From Agromyces salentinus (GTDB lineage Bacteria; Actinomycetota; Actinomycetes; Actinomycetales; Microbacteriaceae): DNA of 64,000 bases. This document shows, piece by piece, positions 24,484 to 31,920 of the stretch. The stretch covers positions 1 through 64,000 of the forward strand of contig NZ_WBIR01000001.1 in NCBI RefSeq assembly GCF_009749395.1, in the 5' to 3' direction. Positions within the stretch are counted from its first letter, which is position 1. Each line of letters opens with the position of its first letter. The notes beneath the pieces are model-generated. The model was not told the origin of the DNA. It searched no databases and saw only the letters and a list, made by a program, of their open reading frames with translations. The translations under genes were made by a program, and so were the position numbers.

Positions 24484-25499
24484 ACATCGACGACGTCGTC
24501 CTGAACTTCACGCCCGGCTCGATGATCGCCCTGAACGTCGTGCTCGGGTTCATCATGTTCGGCATCGCGCTGGACACCGCGCCGTCGGACTTCAAGGCCG
24601 TGCTCACGGCGCCGAAGGCGATGATCATCGCCCTGCTCGCGCAGATCATCCTGCTGCCGGCGGTCACGTTCGGGCTCACGCTCCTGCTGAACGTGCAGGC
24701 CTCGATCGCACTCGGCATGATCCTCGTGGCGTGCTGTCCGCCGGGCAACATCTCGCAGGTGCTGACGTACCGCGCGCGCGGCAACGTGGCCCTGTCGGTG
24801 TCGATGACGGCCGTCGCGAACGTGCTCTACATCTTCATCCTGCCCATCAGCGTCGTCTTCTGGGGCAGCATCCACCCGACCGCCTCGGAGCTCGTGCGCA
24901 GCGTGAGCCTGAACGGCTGGCAGATGCTGGTCGAGATCTTCCTCATCATCGGGCTGCCGTTCCTCGCCGGGCTCGTGATCCGCGCCCGCTGGCCGCGGTT
25001 CGCCGCGCGCGTCCAGCCGTACGCCCGCTGGATCAGCCTCGCCGCCCTCGTCGGCTTCATCGTCATCGCGCTCGTCGGCAACTGGGCGGTCTTCATGGCC
25101 TACATCGGCGTCGTGCTCGTCGCGGTGTTCCTGCACGACGCGATCGCGCTCGGCCTCGGCTACGCGAGCGCGCGCATCGGCGGGCTGCCGAGCCGGGAGC
25201 GCAAGGCCCTCACGTTCGAGGTCGGCATCCGCAACGCGGGCCTCGGCCTCGGCCTCGTGTTCACGTTCTTCGGCGGCATCGGCGGCATGGCGATCGTGGC
25301 CGGCTGGTGGGGCATCTGGGACATCATCGCGGGGCTCGCGCTCGCGAGCGCTTGGGCGAGGGTCACCAGGAAGGCGGATGCCGCGTTCGCGGCGTCGCAC
25401 GCCGACGCGGCGCCCGACGAGCCGTCGTCCGACGCCGCGTCGGCCGGACCGGCCGTCCCCGGCTCGTCGGCGCCCACGGGTCCCGAGGACTCCGCATGA
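24480..25499 (+). CDS. Bile acid:sodium symporter (BASS) family transporter
   Basis: 339 aa with nine to ten membrane segments. The BASS hallmarks are present: LNVVLGFIMFGIALD in the first helices, LVACCPPGNISQVLTYRARGN in the crossover region, and FEVGIRNAGLGL in the second. Substrates of bacterial members include organic acids, sterol-like compounds and pantoate. The C-terminal about 45 residues are a hydrophilic Ala/Ser/Asp/Pro tail. Overlaps both neighbours by ATGA, so it is cotranslated with the monooxygenase and epimerase, and may import or export their substrate. Confidence 0.92.
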   Translation: MNIDDVVLNFTPGSMIALNVVLGFIMFGIALDTAPSDFKAVLTAPKAMIIALLAQIILLPAVTFGLTLLLNVQASIALGMILVACCPPGNISQVLTYRARGNVALSVSMTAVANVLYIFILPISVVFWGSIHPTASELVRSVSLNGWQMLVEIFLIIGLPFLAGLVIRARWPRFAARVQPYARWISLAALVGFIVIALVGNWAVFMAYIGVVLVAVFLHDAIALGLGYASARIGGLPSRERKALTFEVGIRNAGLGLGLVFTFFGGIGGMAIVAGWWGIWDIIAGLALASAWARVTRKADAAFAASHADAAPDEPSSDAASAGPAVPGSSAPTGPEDSA

Positions 25500-26461
25500 A
25501 GCGCGTGCTCGTCACGGGCGGCAGCGGATTCCTCGGCTCGAACGCCGTGCGCGCGCTGGCCGTGCGCCCCGACGTCGACCTCGTCATCTCGGGCGACGTG
25601 CGCCCGCCCGCGGCATCCGTGCCCGATGGCGTCGTCGTCGAGACCTGCGACGTCACGGATGCCGCGACCGTGTCGGCCGTCGTGCAGCGCCACGCGATCG
25701 ACACGATCGTGCACCTCGCCGCGATCGTGGACCCGGGCGGACTGAGCGAGGAGGTCGAGCGGCGCGTCGACGTCGACGGCACGCGCAACGTGCTCGACGC
25801 CGCGGTCGCCCACGGCGTGACGCGCATCGTGGTGTCCTCGTCGGGCGCCGCCTACGGCTACCACGCCGACAGCCCCGAGTGGCTCACCGAGGACGACCCC
25901 ATCCGCGGCAACGAGGAGTTCAGCTACTCCCGGCACAAGCGCCTCGTGGAGGAGCTGCTCGCGGCGTACCGCGCGGACCATCCCGGGCTCGGCCAGGTGG
26001 TGCTCCGCATCGGCACGATCCTCGGCCCGTCGGTGTCGAACCAGATCACGGCGCTCTGGGAGGGCCGGCGCATCCTGAGGATCCGTGGCTCGGAGAGCCC
26101 TTTCGTGTTCGTCTGGGTCGACGACGTGGTGGGCGCCATCGTGCAGGGCGCGACCGGTTCCGTGACCGGCGCGTTCAACGTGGCCGGCGACGGCAAGGTG
26201 ACGGTGACCGAGATCGCCGAGGCGTTCGGCACGCCGACGCTCACCGTGTCGCCCGCCCTGCTCGGCGCGGCGCTGCGCGTCGGGCACGCGCTGCGGTTGA
26301 CGGTGCACGACGCCGACCGCGTGGGGTTCCTGCAGCACCGCCCCGTGCTCGACAATTCGCGGCTCAAGACCGTGCTCGGCTACACGCCGGCCAAGACCAG
26401 CCGCGAGGCCTTCGACGCCTACCTGGCCGCCCGAGCCGTTCGCCTCGCGGGCCACGTCTGA
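25496..26461 (+). CDS. NAD-dependent epimerase/dehydratase (extended SDR)
   Basis: 321 aa. N-terminal NAD motif TGGSGFLG (7-14), the downstream SSSGAAYGY strand, and the catalytic YSRHK (Y-x3-K) near 143. The C-terminal domain is short and has a SPFVFVWVDDVV segment. Family members act on nucleotide sugars or on 3-beta-hydroxysteroids and similar alcohols. With a flavin monooxygenase and a BASS transporter in one operon a non-sugar, possibly terpenoid or steroid-like substrate is plausible but unproven. Confidence 0.85.
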   Translation: MKRVLVTGGSGFLGSNAVRALAVRPDVDLVISGDVRPPAASVPDGVVVETCDVTDAATVSAVVQRHAIDTIVHLAAIVDPGGLSEEVERRVDVDGTRNVLDAAVAHGVTRIVVSSSGAAYGYHADSPEWLTEDDPIRGNEEFSYSRHKRLVEELLAAYRADHPGLGQVVLRIGTILGPSVSNQITALWEGRRILRIRGSESPFVFVWVDDVVGAIVQGATGSVTGAFNVAGDGKVTVTEIAEAFGTPTLTVSPALLGAALRVGHALRLTVHDADRVGFLQHRPVLDNSRLKTVLGYTPAKTSREAFDAYLAARAVRLAGHV

Positions 26462-26468
26462 TCCGGGG

Positions 26469-26508
26469 CTGGTGCTCGCCCCCTCGCATGGGTTTGGAAG
26501 GGCACCAG
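26469..26508 (+). repeat. 7-bp inverted repeat after the epimerase gene
   Basis: CTGGTGC (26469-26475) is complementary to GCACCAG (26502-26508). It could act as a weak terminator or processing site at the end of the operon. Right beside it is a 16-bp palindrome (26510-26525). Confidence 0.4.
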
Positions 26509-26509
26509 C

Positions 26510-26525
26510 GGGCGATCGATCGCCC
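26510..26525. repeat. 16-bp perfect palindrome
   Basis: GGGCGATCGATCGCCC has no spacer. It lies 55 bp before the Trp-rich mini-ORF, where a promoter or operator for that RNA would be expected. Confidence 0.6.
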
Positions 26526-26564
26526 AGTGATCGAGATGGTCTTCAGCTGAAGGAGGTGGCGTCG

Positions 26565-26588
26565 ATGGGGCACTGGTGGTGGCGTTGA
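26565..26588 (+). CDS. Leader peptide MGHWWWR
   Basis: Seven codons, ATG GGG CAC TGG TGG TGG CGT, then TGA immediately followed by a second TGA. AAGGAGG (26550-26556) lies 8 nt before the ATG, the strongest ribosome binding site in the neighbourhood. Three consecutive Trp codons are the signature of tryptophan-sensing leader peptides of actinobacterial trp operons. The peptide itself is probably functionless; ribosome stalling at the Trp codons would be the signal. Confidence 0.7.
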   Translation: MGHWWWR

Positions 26589-26636
26589 TGAGCAATCGGT
26601 GATCCCGGCCTGAGCTGCGGATCACCTTCACCTGAT

Positions 26637-26666
26637 GAGGGTGGGGCGGGAGACCGCCCCACCCTC
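26637..26666. terminator. Strong terminator after the Trp-leader mini-ORF
   Basis: Perfect 13-bp stem (26637-26649 with 26654-26666) and GAGA tetraloop. It ends the Trp-leader RNA on the plus strand and could also serve the membrane-protein gene that ends at 26715 on the minus strand. T-containing bases follow. Confidence 0.8.
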
Positions 26667-26714
26667 ACCTCGTTCTCCGCCGGCATCCGCACGCAGGTGT
26701 GGAGGCGGCCGCGC

Positions 26715-27302
26715 TCAGAACCTCGCCCAAGGCCTGCCGTTGTAGGGCCGCTCGACCTCACGCGGATCGAGGACCCGACCCTCGTCATCGACGTACTCCC
26801 GCCAGGCACGGGGAACCAACCGTGCCATCCCGAGGATCGAGCGGAGCCACAGGACGACGGTCGTGACCGCCGCGACCGTGAGCACCCAGTCGAGGCCCAT
26901 CAAGGTTCCCTCGCGCGCGCCCACGAGGCCGAGCACGAGCATGCAGGAGACGGTCGTGAAGGCGCCGGCCAGGTTGAGCACCGAGCGCGTGCCGCGCCGC
27001 GTCCCGCGGAGCGGGAGCGGGATCGACGCGATCGCGACGACGACGAGCACCGCGACGGCCAGGTACATCCCGGGCCAGGGAGGCGTGAACGCCGGGAAAC
27101 CCTCGGGCGCCGGCTCTCCCTCGACGGGGTAGTTGCCCATGACCAGCGAGATGACGAGGGCCGCGACGAACGGCAGCGCGCCGCAGAGGATCCACAGGAC
27201 GGTGATGAGGAAGGCGCCGTCCCAGATGCGGGACTCCAGGCGCAGTTGCCGGGCAAGACGATCTCCCCCGGGTGAACGGGTGCAGTGGGCCGGATGCGTC
27301 AT
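26715..27302 (-). CDS. Four-helix membrane protein, function unknown
   Basis: 195 aa. After a hydrophilic start (1-27) there are four hydrophobic segments (about 28-53, 75-97, 107-128, 134-152), then a soluble C-terminus ending in PYNGRPWARF. No motif I can name. The ATG at 27302 has TACCGT nine bases upstream and no Shine-Dalgarno, so it may be leaderless or nearly so. It is convergent to the Trp-leader RNA and divergent from the SRP RNA. Confidence 0.7.
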   Translation of the reverse strand: MTHPAHCTRSPGGDRLARQLRLESRIWDGAFLITVLWILCGALPFVAALVISLVMGNYPVEGEPAPEGFPAFTPPWPGMYLAVAVLVVVAIASIPLPLRGTRRGTRSVLNLAGAFTTVSCMLVLGLVGAREGTLMGLDWVLTVAAVTTVVLWLRSILGMARLVPRAWREYVDDEGRVLDPREVERPYNGRPWARF

Positions 27303-27368
27303 GGTCGCCCCACGGTACCGGAGTCCGCACGTTCGGGCCGGTCGGTCATTTGGACCGCGCGGCTCGGG

Positions 27369-27374
27369 TAGACT
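27369..27374 (+). promoter_or_regulatory. -10 box of the SRP RNA gene
   Basis: TAGACT, six bases before the expected RNA 5' end near 27381. TTGGAC lies further upstream but at too short a spacing (13 nt) to be a standard -35 box. Confidence 0.5.
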
Positions 27375-27380
27375 GTCGGA

Positions 27381-27470
27381 GGCTCCTCACGTGGCGCCAT
27401 CCAGGCCAACTCCCCCAGGGCGGAAACGCAGCAAGGGTAACCGGGCTCTGGCGGGTGCGTGAGGGGTCTT
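27381..27470 (+). ncRNA. ffs: Signal recognition particle RNA, small bacterial type
   Basis: About 90 nt folding as one long hairpin: CTCCTCAC at the 5' end pairs with GTGAGGGG at the 3' end. The conserved Ffh-binding domain (CAGGGCGGAAACGCAGCAAGGG, symmetric loop and GGAA-type tetraloop) lies in the middle around 27416-27437. It binds Ffh to target nascent membrane proteins. A promoter-like TAGACT precedes it and tRNA-Ser follows after a few bases. End positions are within a few nt. Confidence 0.92.
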
Positions 27471-27472
27471 CA

Positions 27473-27557
27473 GGAGGATTCGCCTAGTGGCCTATGGCGC
27501 ACGCTTGGAAAGCGTGTTGGGTGCAAGCCCTCGGGGGTTCGAATCCCCCATCCTCCG
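27473..27557 (+). tRNA. tRNA-Ser(GGA)
   Basis: 85 nt with a long variable arm. Acceptor GGAGGAT pairs with ATCCTCC (27550-27556), the anticodon stem CACGC/GCGTG encloses TTGGAAA with anticodon GGA at 27507-27509, and the T arm has GGTTCGAATCC. Discriminator G at 27557; CCA is not encoded. It reads UCC and UCU. Probably cotranscribed with the SRP RNA and ended by the hairpin at 27565-27599. Confidence 0.97.
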
Positions 27558-27564
27558 CAGAACG

Positions 27565-27599
27565 CGAACGGCCCGATCAGGAGCTGATCGGGCCGTTCG
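27565..27599. terminator. Bidirectional terminator after tRNA-Ser
   Basis: Perfect 16-bp stem (27565-27580 with 27584-27599) and a 3-nt loop, followed by GCGTTT. It serves tRNA-Ser on the plus strand and the sugar ABC operon, whose last gene ends at 27617, on the minus strand. Confidence 0.88.
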
Positions 27600-27616
27600 G
27601 CGTTTCGGGCCGCTTC

Positions 27617-28582
27617 CTACCCCTTGAGCCCCGACGAGGCGACGCCGTCGATGATCTGGCGCTGGGCGATGAAGAACACGATGATCATCGGGATCGTCGT
27701 GATCACGCTCGCGGTGATGATGATCTCCCAGTGCCACTCCCCGCCGAACCCGAACGCGTCGACGAGCGACTTGAGGCCCCGCGGCACCGTGAAGGTGTCG
27801 GAGTCCCGCAGGTAGATGAGCGCCCGCATCAGGTCGGTCCACACGGCCTGGACCTCGAACACGAGCACCACGGCGAGCGCCGGCCGGCAGAGCGGGAGTG
27901 CGATGCGCCAGAACACGCCGAACTGGGATGCCCCGTCGATGCGGGCGGCTTCGAAGAGGTCGCGCGGCAGGCCGAGGAAGAACTGGCGCAGCAGGAAGAT
28001 GTAGAACGCGCTGCCGAAGAGGTTGCCCGCCCAGAGCGGCGTCAGCGTGCCGACCTGCCCGAGGCCGTTCCAGATCAGGAACGTCGGGATCATGGTGACG
28101 GCGCCGGGCAGCATCATCGTCGCGAGCACCAGGCCGAAGAGCGCGCCGCGTCCCCGGAAGCGGAAGTACGAGAACCCCCACGCGACCATCGCGCTCGAGA
28201 GGGTCACCGTCACCGCCGCGAGCACCGTGACGATGACGGTGTTCATCAGCCACAGCCCGAGCGGGGCCTCCTGCCAGACCTGCACGTAGTTGTCGAGCGT
28301 GAACGTCTGGGGAATGAGCCGATTGTCGAACACCTCCGTGCGCGGCTTGAAGGAGGCGCTCACGAGCCAGACGAACGGGTAGACGAACACGAGCCCGAGC
28401 AGGCTCAGCGCGACCCAGGCGAAGACCCGGCTCGCCCTCGTCCGACGGCGGCGTCCGGTACCGCGCAAGGTCTCGGCGTCGGTGGGCGGGACGGTCGCGG
28501 CCGCCGCGGCCGGGACCGCGGCATCCCGGCGCGGCGCGGGGCCGGCGGTGCCCCCCACGGGCAGGTCGACGTCGACGCTCAT
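27617..28582 (-). CDS. Carbohydrate ABC transporter permease, MalG type
   Basis: 321 aa. A hydrophilic Ala/Pro-rich N-terminus (1-50) precedes six membrane segments. The EAA loop EAARIDGASQFGVFWRIALPL, which contacts the ATPase, lies near residue 210. It is the second permease of a CUT1 sugar importer. The ATG overlaps the MalF-type gene's TGA (ATGA). No ATPase gene is nearby; many actinobacterial CUT1 systems share one MsiK-type ATPase encoded elsewhere. Confidence 0.93.
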   Translation of the reverse strand: MSVDVDLPVGGTAGPAPRRDAAVPAAAAATVPPTDAETLRGTGRRRRTRASRVFAWVALSLLGLVFVYPFVWLVSASFKPRTEVFDNRLIPQTFTLDNYVQVWQEAPLGLWLMNTVIVTVLAAVTVTLSSAMVAWGFSYFRFRGRGALFGLVLATMMLPGAVTMIPTFLIWNGLGQVGTLTPLWAGNLFGSAFYIFLLRQFFLGLPRDLFEAARIDGASQFGVFWRIALPLCRPALAVVLVFEVQAVWTDLMRALIYLRDSDTFTVPRGLKSLVDAFGFGGEWHWEIIITASVITTIPMIIVFFIAQRQIIDGVASSGLKG

Positions 28583-29556
28583 CGGTCCCCCTCGTAGTAG
28601 ACGAACCGTCGCGACACGATCAACTGGATCGCGGTGACGATCATGATGACGAGGAACAGGCACCACGCCATCGCCGAGGCGTACCCCATGTTCAGGAACT
28701 CGAACGCCTGCTGGAAGAGGTAGATGACGTAGAAGAGCGCGGCGTCGTTGCTGTAGGTGGTGTTGCCCGCCCCGAAGAACGCCGTGTAGGCCTCGTCGAA
28801 GGTCTGCAGCCCGGCGATCGTGTTCACGATGATGATGAAGAACAGCGCGGGGCTGATCATCGGCAGCGTGATGCTGAACGACGTGCGCCAGAAGCCGGCT
28901 CCGTCGAGCTTCGCCGACTCGTACAGGGTCTCGGGCACGTTGCGGAGGGCGGCGAGCAGGATGATGACGGATGACCCGACCGTCCACAACGACATGAAGA
29001 TCAGGCCCGGCTTGACCCAGGCCGGGTCGGTGGTCCACGCCGGGCCGTCGATGCCGAACCAGCCGAGCACCGTGTTCACCAGGCCGTTCTGCCCGTTGAA
29101 CAGCAGGAGGAAGAGCACGCCCACGGCGACCGGCGGCGTCATCTTCGGCAGGAAGAACACCGTCCGGAAGAAGCCGGAGGCACGGCCCGCCCGGTCGAGC
29201 AGCAGCGCGAGGGCGAGCGAGACGATGATGTAGAGCGGCACCTGCACGAGCGTGAAGAACGCCGTGTTCCCGAGGGCGAGGAGCACCTTGGGATCGGCCG
29301 CGAGCTGGGCGTAGTTCTCGAATCCGACGAAGTTCGGGTCGTTGATCACGTCGTAGTCGGTGAGCGAGAGATACGCGCTGTAGATCATCGGCCAGGCCGT
29401 GAAGACGAGGAAGCCCAAGATCCACGGGCTGAGGAACAGCAGCGCGGACCCCACGTTGCGCCGGCTCGCGCGCCGGCGGTTGCGCTCGCGCACCTCGGGG
29501 GCGGCGGAGTGGCGTTCCTTCACCCCACCGCCCGTCATGGGGGCCGTGGCCGTCAT
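28579..29556 (-). CDS. Carbohydrate ABC transporter permease, MalF type
   Basis: 325 aa with six membrane segments and an EAA loop ESAKLDGAGFWRTSFSITLPM near 220. N-terminal residues 1-35 are basic and cytoplasmic. It pairs with the MalG-type protein to make the channel. The ATG at 29556 overlaps the TGA of the binding-protein gene, and its own TGA overlaps the next ATG, so the three genes are tightly coupled. Confidence 0.93.
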   Translation of the reverse strand: MTATAPMTGGGVKERHSAAPEVRERNRRRASRRNVGSALLFLSPWILGFLVFTAWPMIYSAYLSLTDYDVINDPNFVGFENYAQLAADPKVLLALGNTAFFTLVQVPLYIIVSLALALLLDRAGRASGFFRTVFFLPKMTPPVAVGVLFLLLFNGQNGLVNTVLGWFGIDGPAWTTDPAWVKPGLIFMSLWTVGSSVIILLAALRNVPETLYESAKLDGAGFWRTSFSITLPMISPALFFIIIVNTIAGLQTFDEAYTAFFGAGNTTYSNDAALFYVIYLFQQAFEFLNMGYASAMAWCLFLVIMIVTAIQLIVSRRFVYYEGDR

Positions 29557-30944
29557 TCGGCGCCGCGTTCCTCGAGCGTCTTCCAGCCCTCGTCGAGGGC
29601 CTTCTGGGCGGTCTCCTGTGCTTCGGCGAGCGCCTCCTCCGCCGTCGCCTCGCCGTTCAGCACGCTGTTCACGGCGTCCTGCATGGCCTGCTCGAACTCC
29701 GCGTCGGCGGGGTTCGCGGGGAGCGAGACGGTGTGGTCGTTGGCCTCGTACATGGCCTCGACCCCGGCGTCCCACGGCTCTCCGCCCGAGGTGACCATGC
29801 CGCGGATCTCCTCGTCGGCCACGCTGTTGCCGGTCAGGATGCCGGTGAACGGCTTGCCCTCGTCCTCGCGCACCGCGAGCCGGGCGTCGGCCGCCGCTCG
29901 CCATGCGTCCACCGAGGTCATCGCCCTGGCCCAGCGGCAGGCCGCCGCCGCGTTCTCGGTGCCGGAGGGGATGGCCCAGGCCGAACCGCCCGCGAACGCG
30001 ATCGGCTCGCCCGAGGTCGTCCGGACGGTGTCGAACGCCATGGGGGCGTCGGGCGACGCCTCGTTCAGCACGTTGATGTACCACTGCTCCATCGGCATGG
30101 CGCCCAGCACGTTCGTGGCGAACTGGTTGCCCTCGCCGAAGAAGTCGGCGGAGTCGCGGAACGCCTTCACCGCGCTGAAGCCGCCCTGGTCCTCGTAGAT
30201 GCCGACGCCCCAGGTGAGGGCGTCGACGGCCTCCTGCGAGTCGAGCGACGCGGTGCGTCCGTCCTCCGAGAGGAGCGAGCCCCCCGCGGCGGCCACCCAG
30301 AGCGGAAGGAACTCCGGCAGCTTCGAGTCGACGCCGATGACGCTGAGCGAGCCCCCGTCGGACTTGGTGAGTGCGCGATTCGCCTCGGTCATCGCGGCAC
30401 GATCGGACCCGTTGACGTCTTCGATCGAGACGCCGGCGGCCGCGAGCAGGTCGGCGTTGGCCATCGTCACCTGCACCTGGTTGAACTCGGGGATGCCGTA
30501 CACCTGGCCGTCGAGCGTCACCTGGTCGACGGCCGACTCGCGGAACTGCCCCATGTCGATGCCCTCGCCCTCGATGCACCGCTCGAGCGGGATGATCGCG
30601 CCCCGGGCGGCGAGGGAGCCGATCTGGTCACGGTCGGCGTAGAGCAGCTCGGGCGGTTCGCCCGAGGCCACCGCGGAGAGGAACTGCTGGATGTCCAGGT
30701 CGCCCTCGATGAGTTCGACCTCGACGTCGCCGAGTTCGGCCTCGGCGAAGTCGACACGCGAGGTGGCGACCTCGTCGACGCCCGAGAACCCCATGACCGA
30801 GAGCTCACCGTCGAGCGTCGCCCCCGAGTCGTACTCGGCCGTGTCCTCCTGCGCGCCGCCGCCGGTGCCGACCGCGCATCCGCCCATGGCGACGACCGCG
30901 ATCGCGACGCCTGCCGTCCAAGAAATCCTCCGTGATCGGTGCAT
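29553..30944 (-). CDS. Sugar ABC transporter substrate-binding lipoprotein
   Basis: 463 aa. Basic N-terminus, hydrophobic segment and lipobox ending at C23 (VAMGGC), so it is a lipoprotein on the outer face of the membrane. The rest matches family 1 extracellular solute-binding proteins (oligosaccharide type). The last about 60 residues are helical and Glu/Ala-rich. GGAGG lies 7 nt before the ATG. The sugar is unknown: no hydrolase or regulator is adjacent, only an operator-like AGAAGCGCTTCT upstream. Confidence 0.92.
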   Translation of the reverse strand: MHRSRRISWTAGVAIAVVAMGGCAVGTGGGAQEDTAEYDSGATLDGELSVMGFSGVDEVATSRVDFAEAELGDVEVELIEGDLDIQQFLSAVASGEPPELLYADRDQIGSLAARGAIIPLERCIEGEGIDMGQFRESAVDQVTLDGQVYGIPEFNQVQVTMANADLLAAAGVSIEDVNGSDRAAMTEANRALTKSDGGSLSVIGVDSKLPEFLPLWVAAAGGSLLSEDGRTASLDSQEAVDALTWGVGIYEDQGGFSAVKAFRDSADFFGEGNQFATNVLGAMPMEQWYINVLNEASPDAPMAFDTVRTTSGEPIAFAGGSAWAIPSGTENAAAACRWARAMTSVDAWRAAADARLAVREDEGKPFTGILTGNSVADEEIRGMVTSGGEPWDAGVEAMYEANDHTVSLPANPADAEFEQAMQDAVNSVLNGEATAEEALAEAQETAQKALDEGWKTLEERGAE

Positions 30945-31031
30945 TCGAAGCCTCCATCCCTCGCGCCCGCTCGTGGCGTGGCGACACCGTCACGGTAGGC
31001 AGCGAGCGTGCCACCCGAGAAGGGGCTTGAC

Positions 31032-31043
31032 AGAAGCGCTTCT
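31032..31043. promoter_or_regulatory. LacI-type operator AGAAGCGCTTCT
   Basis: A perfect 12-bp palindrome 88 bp before the start of the sugar-binding-protein gene. Its GC-centred symmetry is the style of LacI/GalR operators. No LacI gene is adjacent; the regulator is probably encoded elsewhere. Confidence 0.6.
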
Positions 31044-31196
31044 CCCGACAGCACCCCTCCCGGGTATTCCGCCCGGCGGATGGCATGACGGCGGATAACA
31101 GGCGCTTCCGGGCCGCACAACCCCCCTCCGCGACATCCGGGGACCTGCTTACCGTGGCACTGGGCGACGCACGTGCGCCCTGAACAGGAGGAGACC

Positions 31197-31721
31197 ATGA
31201 GTACGACCCTCACCTCGTCGACCGAGGTCGACGTCCCCGTCCGCACGGCGTACAACCAGTGGACGCAGTTCGAGTCATTCCCCGAGTTCCTCGGCGGTGT
31301 CGAGGAGGTGCGCCAGCTCGACGACACCCTGACCCACTGGGTGGTGTCGATCGGCGGCGTGAAGCGCGAGTTCGACGCCGAGATCGGCGACCAGGTTCCC
31401 GACGACCACGTCTCATGGGCGAGCGTCGGCGACGAGCCGTTCCACACCGGACGCGTGCAGTTCACCCCGCTCGGGGCCGACCGCACGCGCGTCGACCTCG
31501 AGATCGAGTGGGAGCCCCAGGGCTTCGTGGAGAAGGCCGGCGCGGCGCTCCAACTCGACGACCTCCAGGTCACGCGCGACCTCTCGCGCTTCAAGTCGTT
31601 CATCGAGGACCGCGAGCGCGCGACGGGCGCCTGGCGCGGCGAGGTGCACGGCGGCGACACCACCGGCACGGCCACCACGAGCGGGCTGGGGGCCGGCGGC
31701 CTGCCGCCGCAGACCCTCTGA
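31197..31721 (+). CDS. SRPBCC-domain protein (polyketide cyclase/dehydrase-like)
   Basis: 174 aa. The ligand-binding START-like fold is visible from VDVPVRTAYNQWTQFESFPEFLGGVEEV through the C-terminal helix (about 115-145). The last 25 residues are Gly/Thr-rich. Members of this subgroup are found in actinobacteria as stand-alone proteins without established activity. AGGAGG lies 5 nt before the ATG, the same arrangement as the second SRPBCC gene at 36285. A strong terminator follows. Confidence 0.85.
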   Translation: MSTTLTSSTEVDVPVRTAYNQWTQFESFPEFLGGVEEVRQLDDTLTHWVVSIGGVKREFDAEIGDQVPDDHVSWASVGDEPFHTGRVQFTPLGADRTRVDLEIEWEPQGFVEKAGAALQLDDLQVTRDLSRFKSFIEDRERATGAWRGEVHGGDTTGTATTSGLGAGGLPPQTL

Positions 31722-31733
31722 CGGAGGCCGTCA

Positions 31734-31768
31734 GGAGAGCCCGGCGCCCGATGGGTGCCGGGCTCTCC
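31734..31768 (+). terminator. Terminator after the SRPBCC gene
   Basis: 16-bp stem (31734-31749 with 31753-31768, one G-T wobble) and a 3-nt loop, starting 12 nt past the stop. Confidence 0.8.
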
Positions 31769-31920
31769 GGCTGCCACGCGGCATCCGTGTCCTCATTAAT
31801 GCCGAATAGCGCGCCCGGTGCGCCCTCCCCCATGATTTCAGAGATGTCAGCGGCGAGGATGGATACGCGGAGTGGGGACTCAGGGGGCTCCTCCATCGGA
31901 TCCGGGGCAGTAAGGGGCGA

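Follow-up and report, generated by a model that had tools for sequence, protein, structure and literature searches.

An orphan trp-leader-like unit with a seven-codon reading frame, conserved at unrelated sites in three genomes of the genus Agromyces

Described leader RNAs and seven-codon genes, and the MGHWWWR unit

The trp leader trpL of Sinorhizobium meliloti gives rise to the small RNA rnTrpL and to the 14-amino-acid peptide peTrpL, both reported to act in trans (PMC7298713). The RNA starts at the ATG codon and is set free by a functional trpE(G) attenuator; in the account of that paper, the leader RNAs and peptides with an activity in trans belong to attenuators which continue to control their operon (PMC7298713). 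The attenuators described for Corynebacterium and Streptomyces precede trp operons or trpS. Their short open reading frame (ORF) contains two or three UGG codons and is followed by GC-rich hairpins; they also have poly-U tracts, and the antiterminator is built on conserved gGCC-rGCy-GGCC triples (PMC1262725). Another comparable system is the microcin C gene mccA, which contains seven codons with a strong Shine-Dalgarno sequence (SD) and a terminator directly behind, and which is transcribed into a short monocistronic RNA; this gene yields a functional peptide, aided by reiterative translation (PMC6495379). The mccA precursors considered in that study, encoded near most mccB homologues, all end in Asn (PMC6495379).

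The locus presented here is located in a window of 64,000 nucleotides (the whole stretch of DNA that was analysed) from Agromyces salentinus. It is composed of an SD, the ORF MGHWWWR and two stems, and is called below the MGHWWWR unit. As rnTrpL is outlined in its description, the unit resembles it as a predicted small RNA with consecutive Trp codons and a terminator, here read from the sequence alone; unlike rnTrpL, it has no trp gene attached, showed no antiterminator in the fold tests, contains seven codons with an SD and is patchily distributed within one genus. It shares with the actinobacterial attenuators, in the features reported for them, the short ORF with a UGG run followed by GC-rich hairpins, and differs from them in that no Trp gene follows, no antiterminator was found and the tail is U-poor. 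Like mccA as characterized in the study cited, it displays seven codons, a strong SD and a terminator-like stem behind, the RNA being predicted; unlike mccA, it ends in Arg in all three copies and no mccB was seen among the neighbouring ORFs as read. The literature searched gave no match for "MGHWWWR". Among the matches listed (titles and beginnings of abstracts), no stand-alone Trp leader was detected in the searches on rnTrpL/peTrpL and trans-acting trpL sRNAs, on actinobacterial trp attenuators, or on orphan Trp-rich sORFs and mccA-type mini-genes. The explanation that we prefer, and to which we give about an even chance, is that the unit represents a translated and laterally moving mini-gene which would act in trans through its RNA or its peptide.

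Anatomy and conservation of the unit

The original prediction placed the motif AAGGAGG 8 nt before a seven-codon ORF followed by a hairpin and a strong terminator, and these elements are present in the window, the last as a terminator-like stem (Table 1). The codons of the ORF are ATG GGG CAC TGG TGG TGG CGT TGA. The terminator-like stem comprises 13 bp with a computed folding energy of -31.3 kcal/mol. It is followed by the U-poor run ACCTCGTTCT, the poly-U tract being a feature of the trp attenuators compared here, and the stem is absent from a simple terminator scan because this tail is poor in U. The 5' part of about 50 nt shared with the copy of genome G009 may correspond to a promoter or to the 5' end of the RNA, and includes the small palindromic hairpin GGGCGATCGATCGCCC at positions 26510-26525. 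In the blastn alignment with the G009 copy, positions 26502-26604 of the window are 79% identical over 106 columns, a longer alignment being weaker. A simple scan of positions 25000-28500 revealed no promoter-like site, and no consensus promoter was recognised. At the Rfam gathering score, the matches in the window are the SRP RNA and a tRNA only, none of them on the MGHWWWR unit.

Table 1. Features of the MGHWWWR unit and of its surroundings in the window (numbering of the window; a point indicates that no strand applies).
Feature	Positions	Strand	Remarks
5' part common to the window and G009 copies	26502-26549	+	detected by blastn; absent from the G019 copy
Shine-Dalgarno AAGGAGG	26550-26556	+	read from sequence; AGGAGGTGGCGT invariant in 3/3 copies
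Seven-codon ORF MGHWWWR, stop TGA	26565-26588	+	same peptide in 3/3 copies
Middle hairpin	26598-26626	+	arms GGTGATCC (26598-26605) and GGATCACC (26619-26626)
Terminator-like stem GAGGGTGGGGCGG-GAGA-CCGCCCCACCCTC	26637-26666	+	arms 26637-26649 and 26654-26666
Tail TCGTTC, 3' of the stem	26670-26675	+	identical in 3/3 copies
Insert relative to near relatives	26434-27330 (approximate ends)	.	flanks align, interval replaced in six genomes
195-aa membrane-protein-like ORF	26715-27302	-	same insert, outside the conserved unit

Positions 26548-26680 fold better than 200 of 200 shuffled sequences (z = -5.01), and the fold of positions 26462-26672 gives a z of -3.65 against shuffles. An SD followed by a short WWW ORF was counted four times in the window, against zero in 60 third-order Markov windows; the four counts are taken as four overlapping SD words before one ORF, and the window contains no other short WWW ORF. 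The pattern search in 60 genomes of the genus recovered three matches, one each in G000 (the genome of the window), G019 and G009, whereas the reversed control pattern recovered none. We conclude that the unit is not due to chance because it recurs in 3 of the 60 genomes. Conservation in relatives, initially suggested as a check, was thus observed in two of the other 59 Agromyces genomes, where the sites are not trp loci.

A covariance model was built from the three copies themselves. They score 129.5 to 149.5 bits with their own model, and the other matches listed do not exceed 34.9 bits, the match at 34.9 bits overlapping the G009 copy on the opposite strand. Thirty model loci were fetched in the genus: three are the copies, one was unreadable and 26 have no short WW ORF. 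About six of the eight weak matches read by eye (L084-L092) are terminators behind gene stops, and stems of the form GAGGGYNGGGC appear as a terminator type shared by genomes of the genus. Such stems would suit the explanation that a chance ORF happens to precede an ordinary terminator, but the same SD and ORF block is found in three species at unrelated sites and the control pattern is without match, so that we consider this explanation extremely improbable.

From AGGAGG through TGAT at the stop, the three copies agree at 36 of 39 positions. The sole difference in the ORF is the synonymous change CGT/CGC (Arg), and the other two changes are located in the spacer between the SD and the start codon. 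The middle hairpin varies in sequence and in length among the copies, yet each one folds into a stem (-20.0, -18.5 and -34.6 kcal/mol for the folds of the mid-region). The consensus fold contains three pairs with a change on both sides, one within the 13-bp stem (A-U/G-C) and one flanking it; three sequences give no real support from covariation, because the covariation term is 0.09 kcal/mol. The number of copies being only three, the constraint on coding and that on the RNA are inseparable. Two candidates were rejected: in the consensus fold, the tail TCGTTC seemed to mask the SD, but the corresponding pair sum is 0.44 in the window and 0.00 in the other two copies, and an ORF on the reverse strand is not conserved by eye.

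The residues Gly, His and Arg of the heptapeptide are conserved as well as the Trp residues in the three copies. This observation is consistent with a peptide mini-gene, in which the heptapeptide itself would matter (as a signal, an antibiotic precursor or a ligand) and the Trp codons would not constitute a sensor. The layout of mccA likewise combines seven codons and a terminator hairpin with a strong SD, and ORFs of two to eight codons can undergo reiterative translation, as presented in the same study (PMC6495379). However, the C-terminal residue is Arg, whereas the mccA-type precursors reported there end in Asn (PMC6495379), and the ORFs read in the three neighbourhoods include no shared enzyme gene. 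Seven neighbouring proteins, covering a minority of the neighbourhood ORFs, were compared with Pfam and none is of the adenylating type. We regard a role of the peptide of this kind, with no sensing by the Trp codons, as unlikely.

Genomic sites and distribution of the copies

In the window, a distance of 104 nt separates the start of the ORF from the final base of the epimerase stop codon (position 26461), in agreement with the distance of about 100 bp announced beforehand; the epimerase was identified by an NCBIfam search. As also announced, no trp gene stands behind the unit. The next gene is the convergent 195-aa ORF, with no protein gene of the plus strand directly after the unit, and it is followed on the plus strand by the 4.5S RNA (27378) and a tRNA-Ser (27473). 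The unit and the 195-aa ORF are held in an insert of about 0.9 kb between the epimerase gene and the 4.5S RNA. The aligned flanks of this insert are only about 20 to 175 nt apart in G015, G075, G061, G008, G026 and in the carrier G019. In G009, the seventh genome compared, it is the phosphotransacetylase gene that precedes the 4.5S RNA, with no epimerase operon at this place.

The first interpretation offered an RNA released from the 3'-UTR of the monooxygenase-transporter-epimerase operon. This does not hold: in the five near relatives and in G019, the operon ends by the 4.5S RNA with no unit, and the two other carriers have their unit elsewhere. The unit is therefore not a product of the 3'-UTR of this operon, because the interval of the insert is empty in six genomes and the sites are unrelated.

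The copy of G009 adjoins a convergent tRNA-Leu. The tRNA-Leu side is found with no unit in G027, G029 and G076, and G027 also has the far side. The copy of G019 has a 61-aa ORF on one side and a flavin reductase gene on the other; the same flanks are present in G028, where they are separated by 65 nt versus 278 nt in G019. Two of the three copies precede a convergent gene; the flavin reductase gene of G019 is codirectional, its likely ATG being about 170 nt past the terminator. A role of the unit as the leader of this gene was rejected since the upstream region of the gene exists in G028 with no unit. In the ORFs read, the three neighbourhoods were not seen to share any gene. The 195-aa ORF displays a match in only 1 of the 60 genomes of the genus (E up to 1e-10), for which reason it was rejected as a part of one unit with MGHWWWR; it has no match in Pfam or NCBIfam and no relative in genome_contigs.

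The nearest relatives of the window genome, according to the identity of the phosphotransacetylase, are G015 (97%), G075 and G061 (92%), G026 (91%) and G008 (90%), and all of them are devoid of the unit. The identity is 86% for the carriers G009 and G019 and is similar for several non-carriers. A phosphotransacetylase tree was obtained for 30 of the 59 matching genomes (those with fetched loci). Each carrier forms a strongly supported pair with a non-carrier (G015, G027 or G032). The tree forces three changes of presence, a value similar to that of shuffled labels (mean 2.9), and these changes may represent either gains by transfer or an old presence followed by losses. Transfer or movement is favoured because the sites differ and the sister genomes have no copy. 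The rarity of the unit (3/60) shows that it is dispensable.

The scattered and patchy sites, as well as the strong palindromes, could also point to a DNA-level repeat or a miniature mobile element whose palindromes would be the essential part, the ORF being accidental. Against this, each carrier genome has a single copy, the three copies have no terminal inverted repeats in common, and the non-palindromic block of SD and ORF is the most conserved stretch. We consider a repeat or mobile element of this type quite improbable, and retain the mini-gene, with its ORF predicted to be translated, as the entity that would have moved. Against such a movement of the mini-gene, neither common terminal repeats nor target duplications were seen across the three copies, and no integrase was seen by eye.

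Outside the genus sample, the pattern of an SD followed by M-x-H-WWW-R/S recovered eight loci in genome_contigs, with ORFs of 19 to 71 codons. They were rejected as copies, being by eye an alternate frame of longer genes and unlike the unit past the Trp codons; this result says nothing on the genus because the collection may omit records near the window. No match to the unit pattern was found in viral_contigs, and the matches obtained by distant blastn against plasmids and phages are all short, with a coverage of 12-15%. The MGHWWWR pattern, compared with 149 genomes of the order (four from the genus), matches the window alone. The family sample contains 398 genomes from 85 genera, of which 10 genomes belong to the genus, with neither G009 nor G019 among them. 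A looser WWW pattern recovered 34 of these genomes with 40 listed matches, and this pattern has a background because 10 genomes gave a match to the control. Among the 30 loci fetched, the window alone displays a complete ORF of less than 30 codons, the locus L055 being cut by the end of the contig. The RNA model detected seven weak matches in the family besides the window (26.2-31.2 bits); none has a WWW ORF nearby, and one short WW ORF is found at L217.

Other observations concern the surroundings of the insert. A second insert of about 4.2 kb (window positions 27600-31777), corresponding by eye to a sugar ABC-transporter operon, is found beyond the 4.5S RNA and the tRNA-Ser. Only about 0.01 to 0.8 kb separate the tRNA region from the sequence running from window position 31777 onward in G015, G075, G061, G008, G026 and G009. 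The region around the 4.5S RNA and the tRNA-Ser looks like an insertion hotspot. The 4.5S RNA (27378-27474) and the tRNA-Ser GGA (27473-27558) are head to tail, their predictions overlapping by 2 nt, and this stretch aligns in one piece in the relatives compared.

Attenuation, tryptophan genes and proposed mode of action

In its layout, the unit had first been likened to a trp attenuator. Consecutive Trp codons are indeed present in a short ORF behind a ribosome site (26550-26588), but the attenuator reading is not supported: no antiterminator was found and the terminator forms in every ribosome setting modelled. The pairing of the leader with the 5' arm of the terminator was compared with 200 shuffles, and the fraction at least as good is 0.095 for the window, 0.91 for G019 and 0.985 for G009; this pairing is thus marginal in the window and no better than shuffles in the other two copies. 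With constrained folds, the mean pair probability of the terminator is 0.968-1.000 for the three copies in the four ribosome settings modelled, which include a ribosome on the Trp codons, at the stop codon or absent. Neither the duplex nor the constrained-fold tests revealed a mutually exclusive antiterminator in the three copies, and none of the three is followed on its own strand by a Trp-related gene. Since no antiterminator was found, the terminator forms in all settings and two copies have a convergent neighbour, we consider a classical switch unlikely.

These results also bear on the idea of a displaced attenuator or upstream-ORF switch, either an inert relic or acting on a nearby gene in some carriers. 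The run of Trp codons, the hairpin and the terminator resemble in outline the actinobacterial trp leaders as described (PMC1262725), the pairing in the window beats about 90% of the shuffles, and the flavin reductase gene of G019 follows on the same strand. On the other hand, no ribosome setting reveals a competing antiterminator, two of the three next genes are convergent and the upstream region of the flavin reductase gene also occurs in G028 with no unit. Moreover, the SD and the ORF are better preserved than the rest of the unit in the three lineages, which does not resemble decay, and the window holds the only complete short ORF with a Trp triplet among the 30 loci fetched from the 40 listed family matches. 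We judge a displaced switch improbable.

From the sequence features, we infer for the mini-gene a transcription as a discrete RNA, a translation and an action of the product in trans. The transcript would be short and would contain the strong ribosome site, the ORF MGHWWWR, the middle hairpin and its own terminator-like end, and the mini-gene would have reached different species of a single genus by spreading or moving. The U-poor tail, the lack of a recognised promoter, the codirectional gene of G019, the upstream part common to only two copies and the rarity of the unit weigh against this explanation. The ribosome would most likely initiate at AAGGAGG and open the stem internal to the ORF. 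The passage over the three UGG codons would depend on charged tRNA-Trp, so that the availability or lifetime of the RNA and the yield of heptapeptide would track the tryptophan status. The terminator would fix the 3' end with no role as a switch, and the active product would be the RNA, the heptapeptide or both. A narrower proposal, advanced tentatively, is that of a stand-alone, moving, Trp-sensing RNA mini-gene whose activity in trans would be set by the passage of the ribosome over the three Trp codons. If the mini-gene explanation is true, trans-acting leaders can become independent genes: a leader-like unit would live alone and move between genomes, unlike the known leaders that are tied to their operon. 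A gene of seven codons would rank among the smallest genes. The unit is short enough for codon-by-codon mutation, which makes the role of the RNA versus that of the peptide directly testable.

The search for a second copy before trpE, proposed at the outset, recovered none in the genome of the window nor in its two trpE regions. No short ORF with three Trp codons is present near either trpE-family gene in the stretches fetched, and a search of the two trpE regions with Rfam up to an E of 5 gave three matches, all below the gathering score. The alternative of a remnant left after the loss of trp genes is not supported, given on one hand the conservation of the unit at three unrelated non-trp sites and, on the other hand, a trpE with no Trp-rich leader. 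The MGHWWWR unit is thus most likely not the relic of a local trp operon, while its description as an orphan trp-leader-like unit, conserved and with no trp gene behind, is borne out. The trpE of this genome lies a few bases behind an apparent hisI (identified by eye). Near the second trpE-family gene, there is one ORF of 27 codons with a single WW. This second gene (L038, contig 23 of G000) matches PF04715 with 32.5 bits, stands apart from the his-trp run and perhaps encodes another chorismate-using enzyme.
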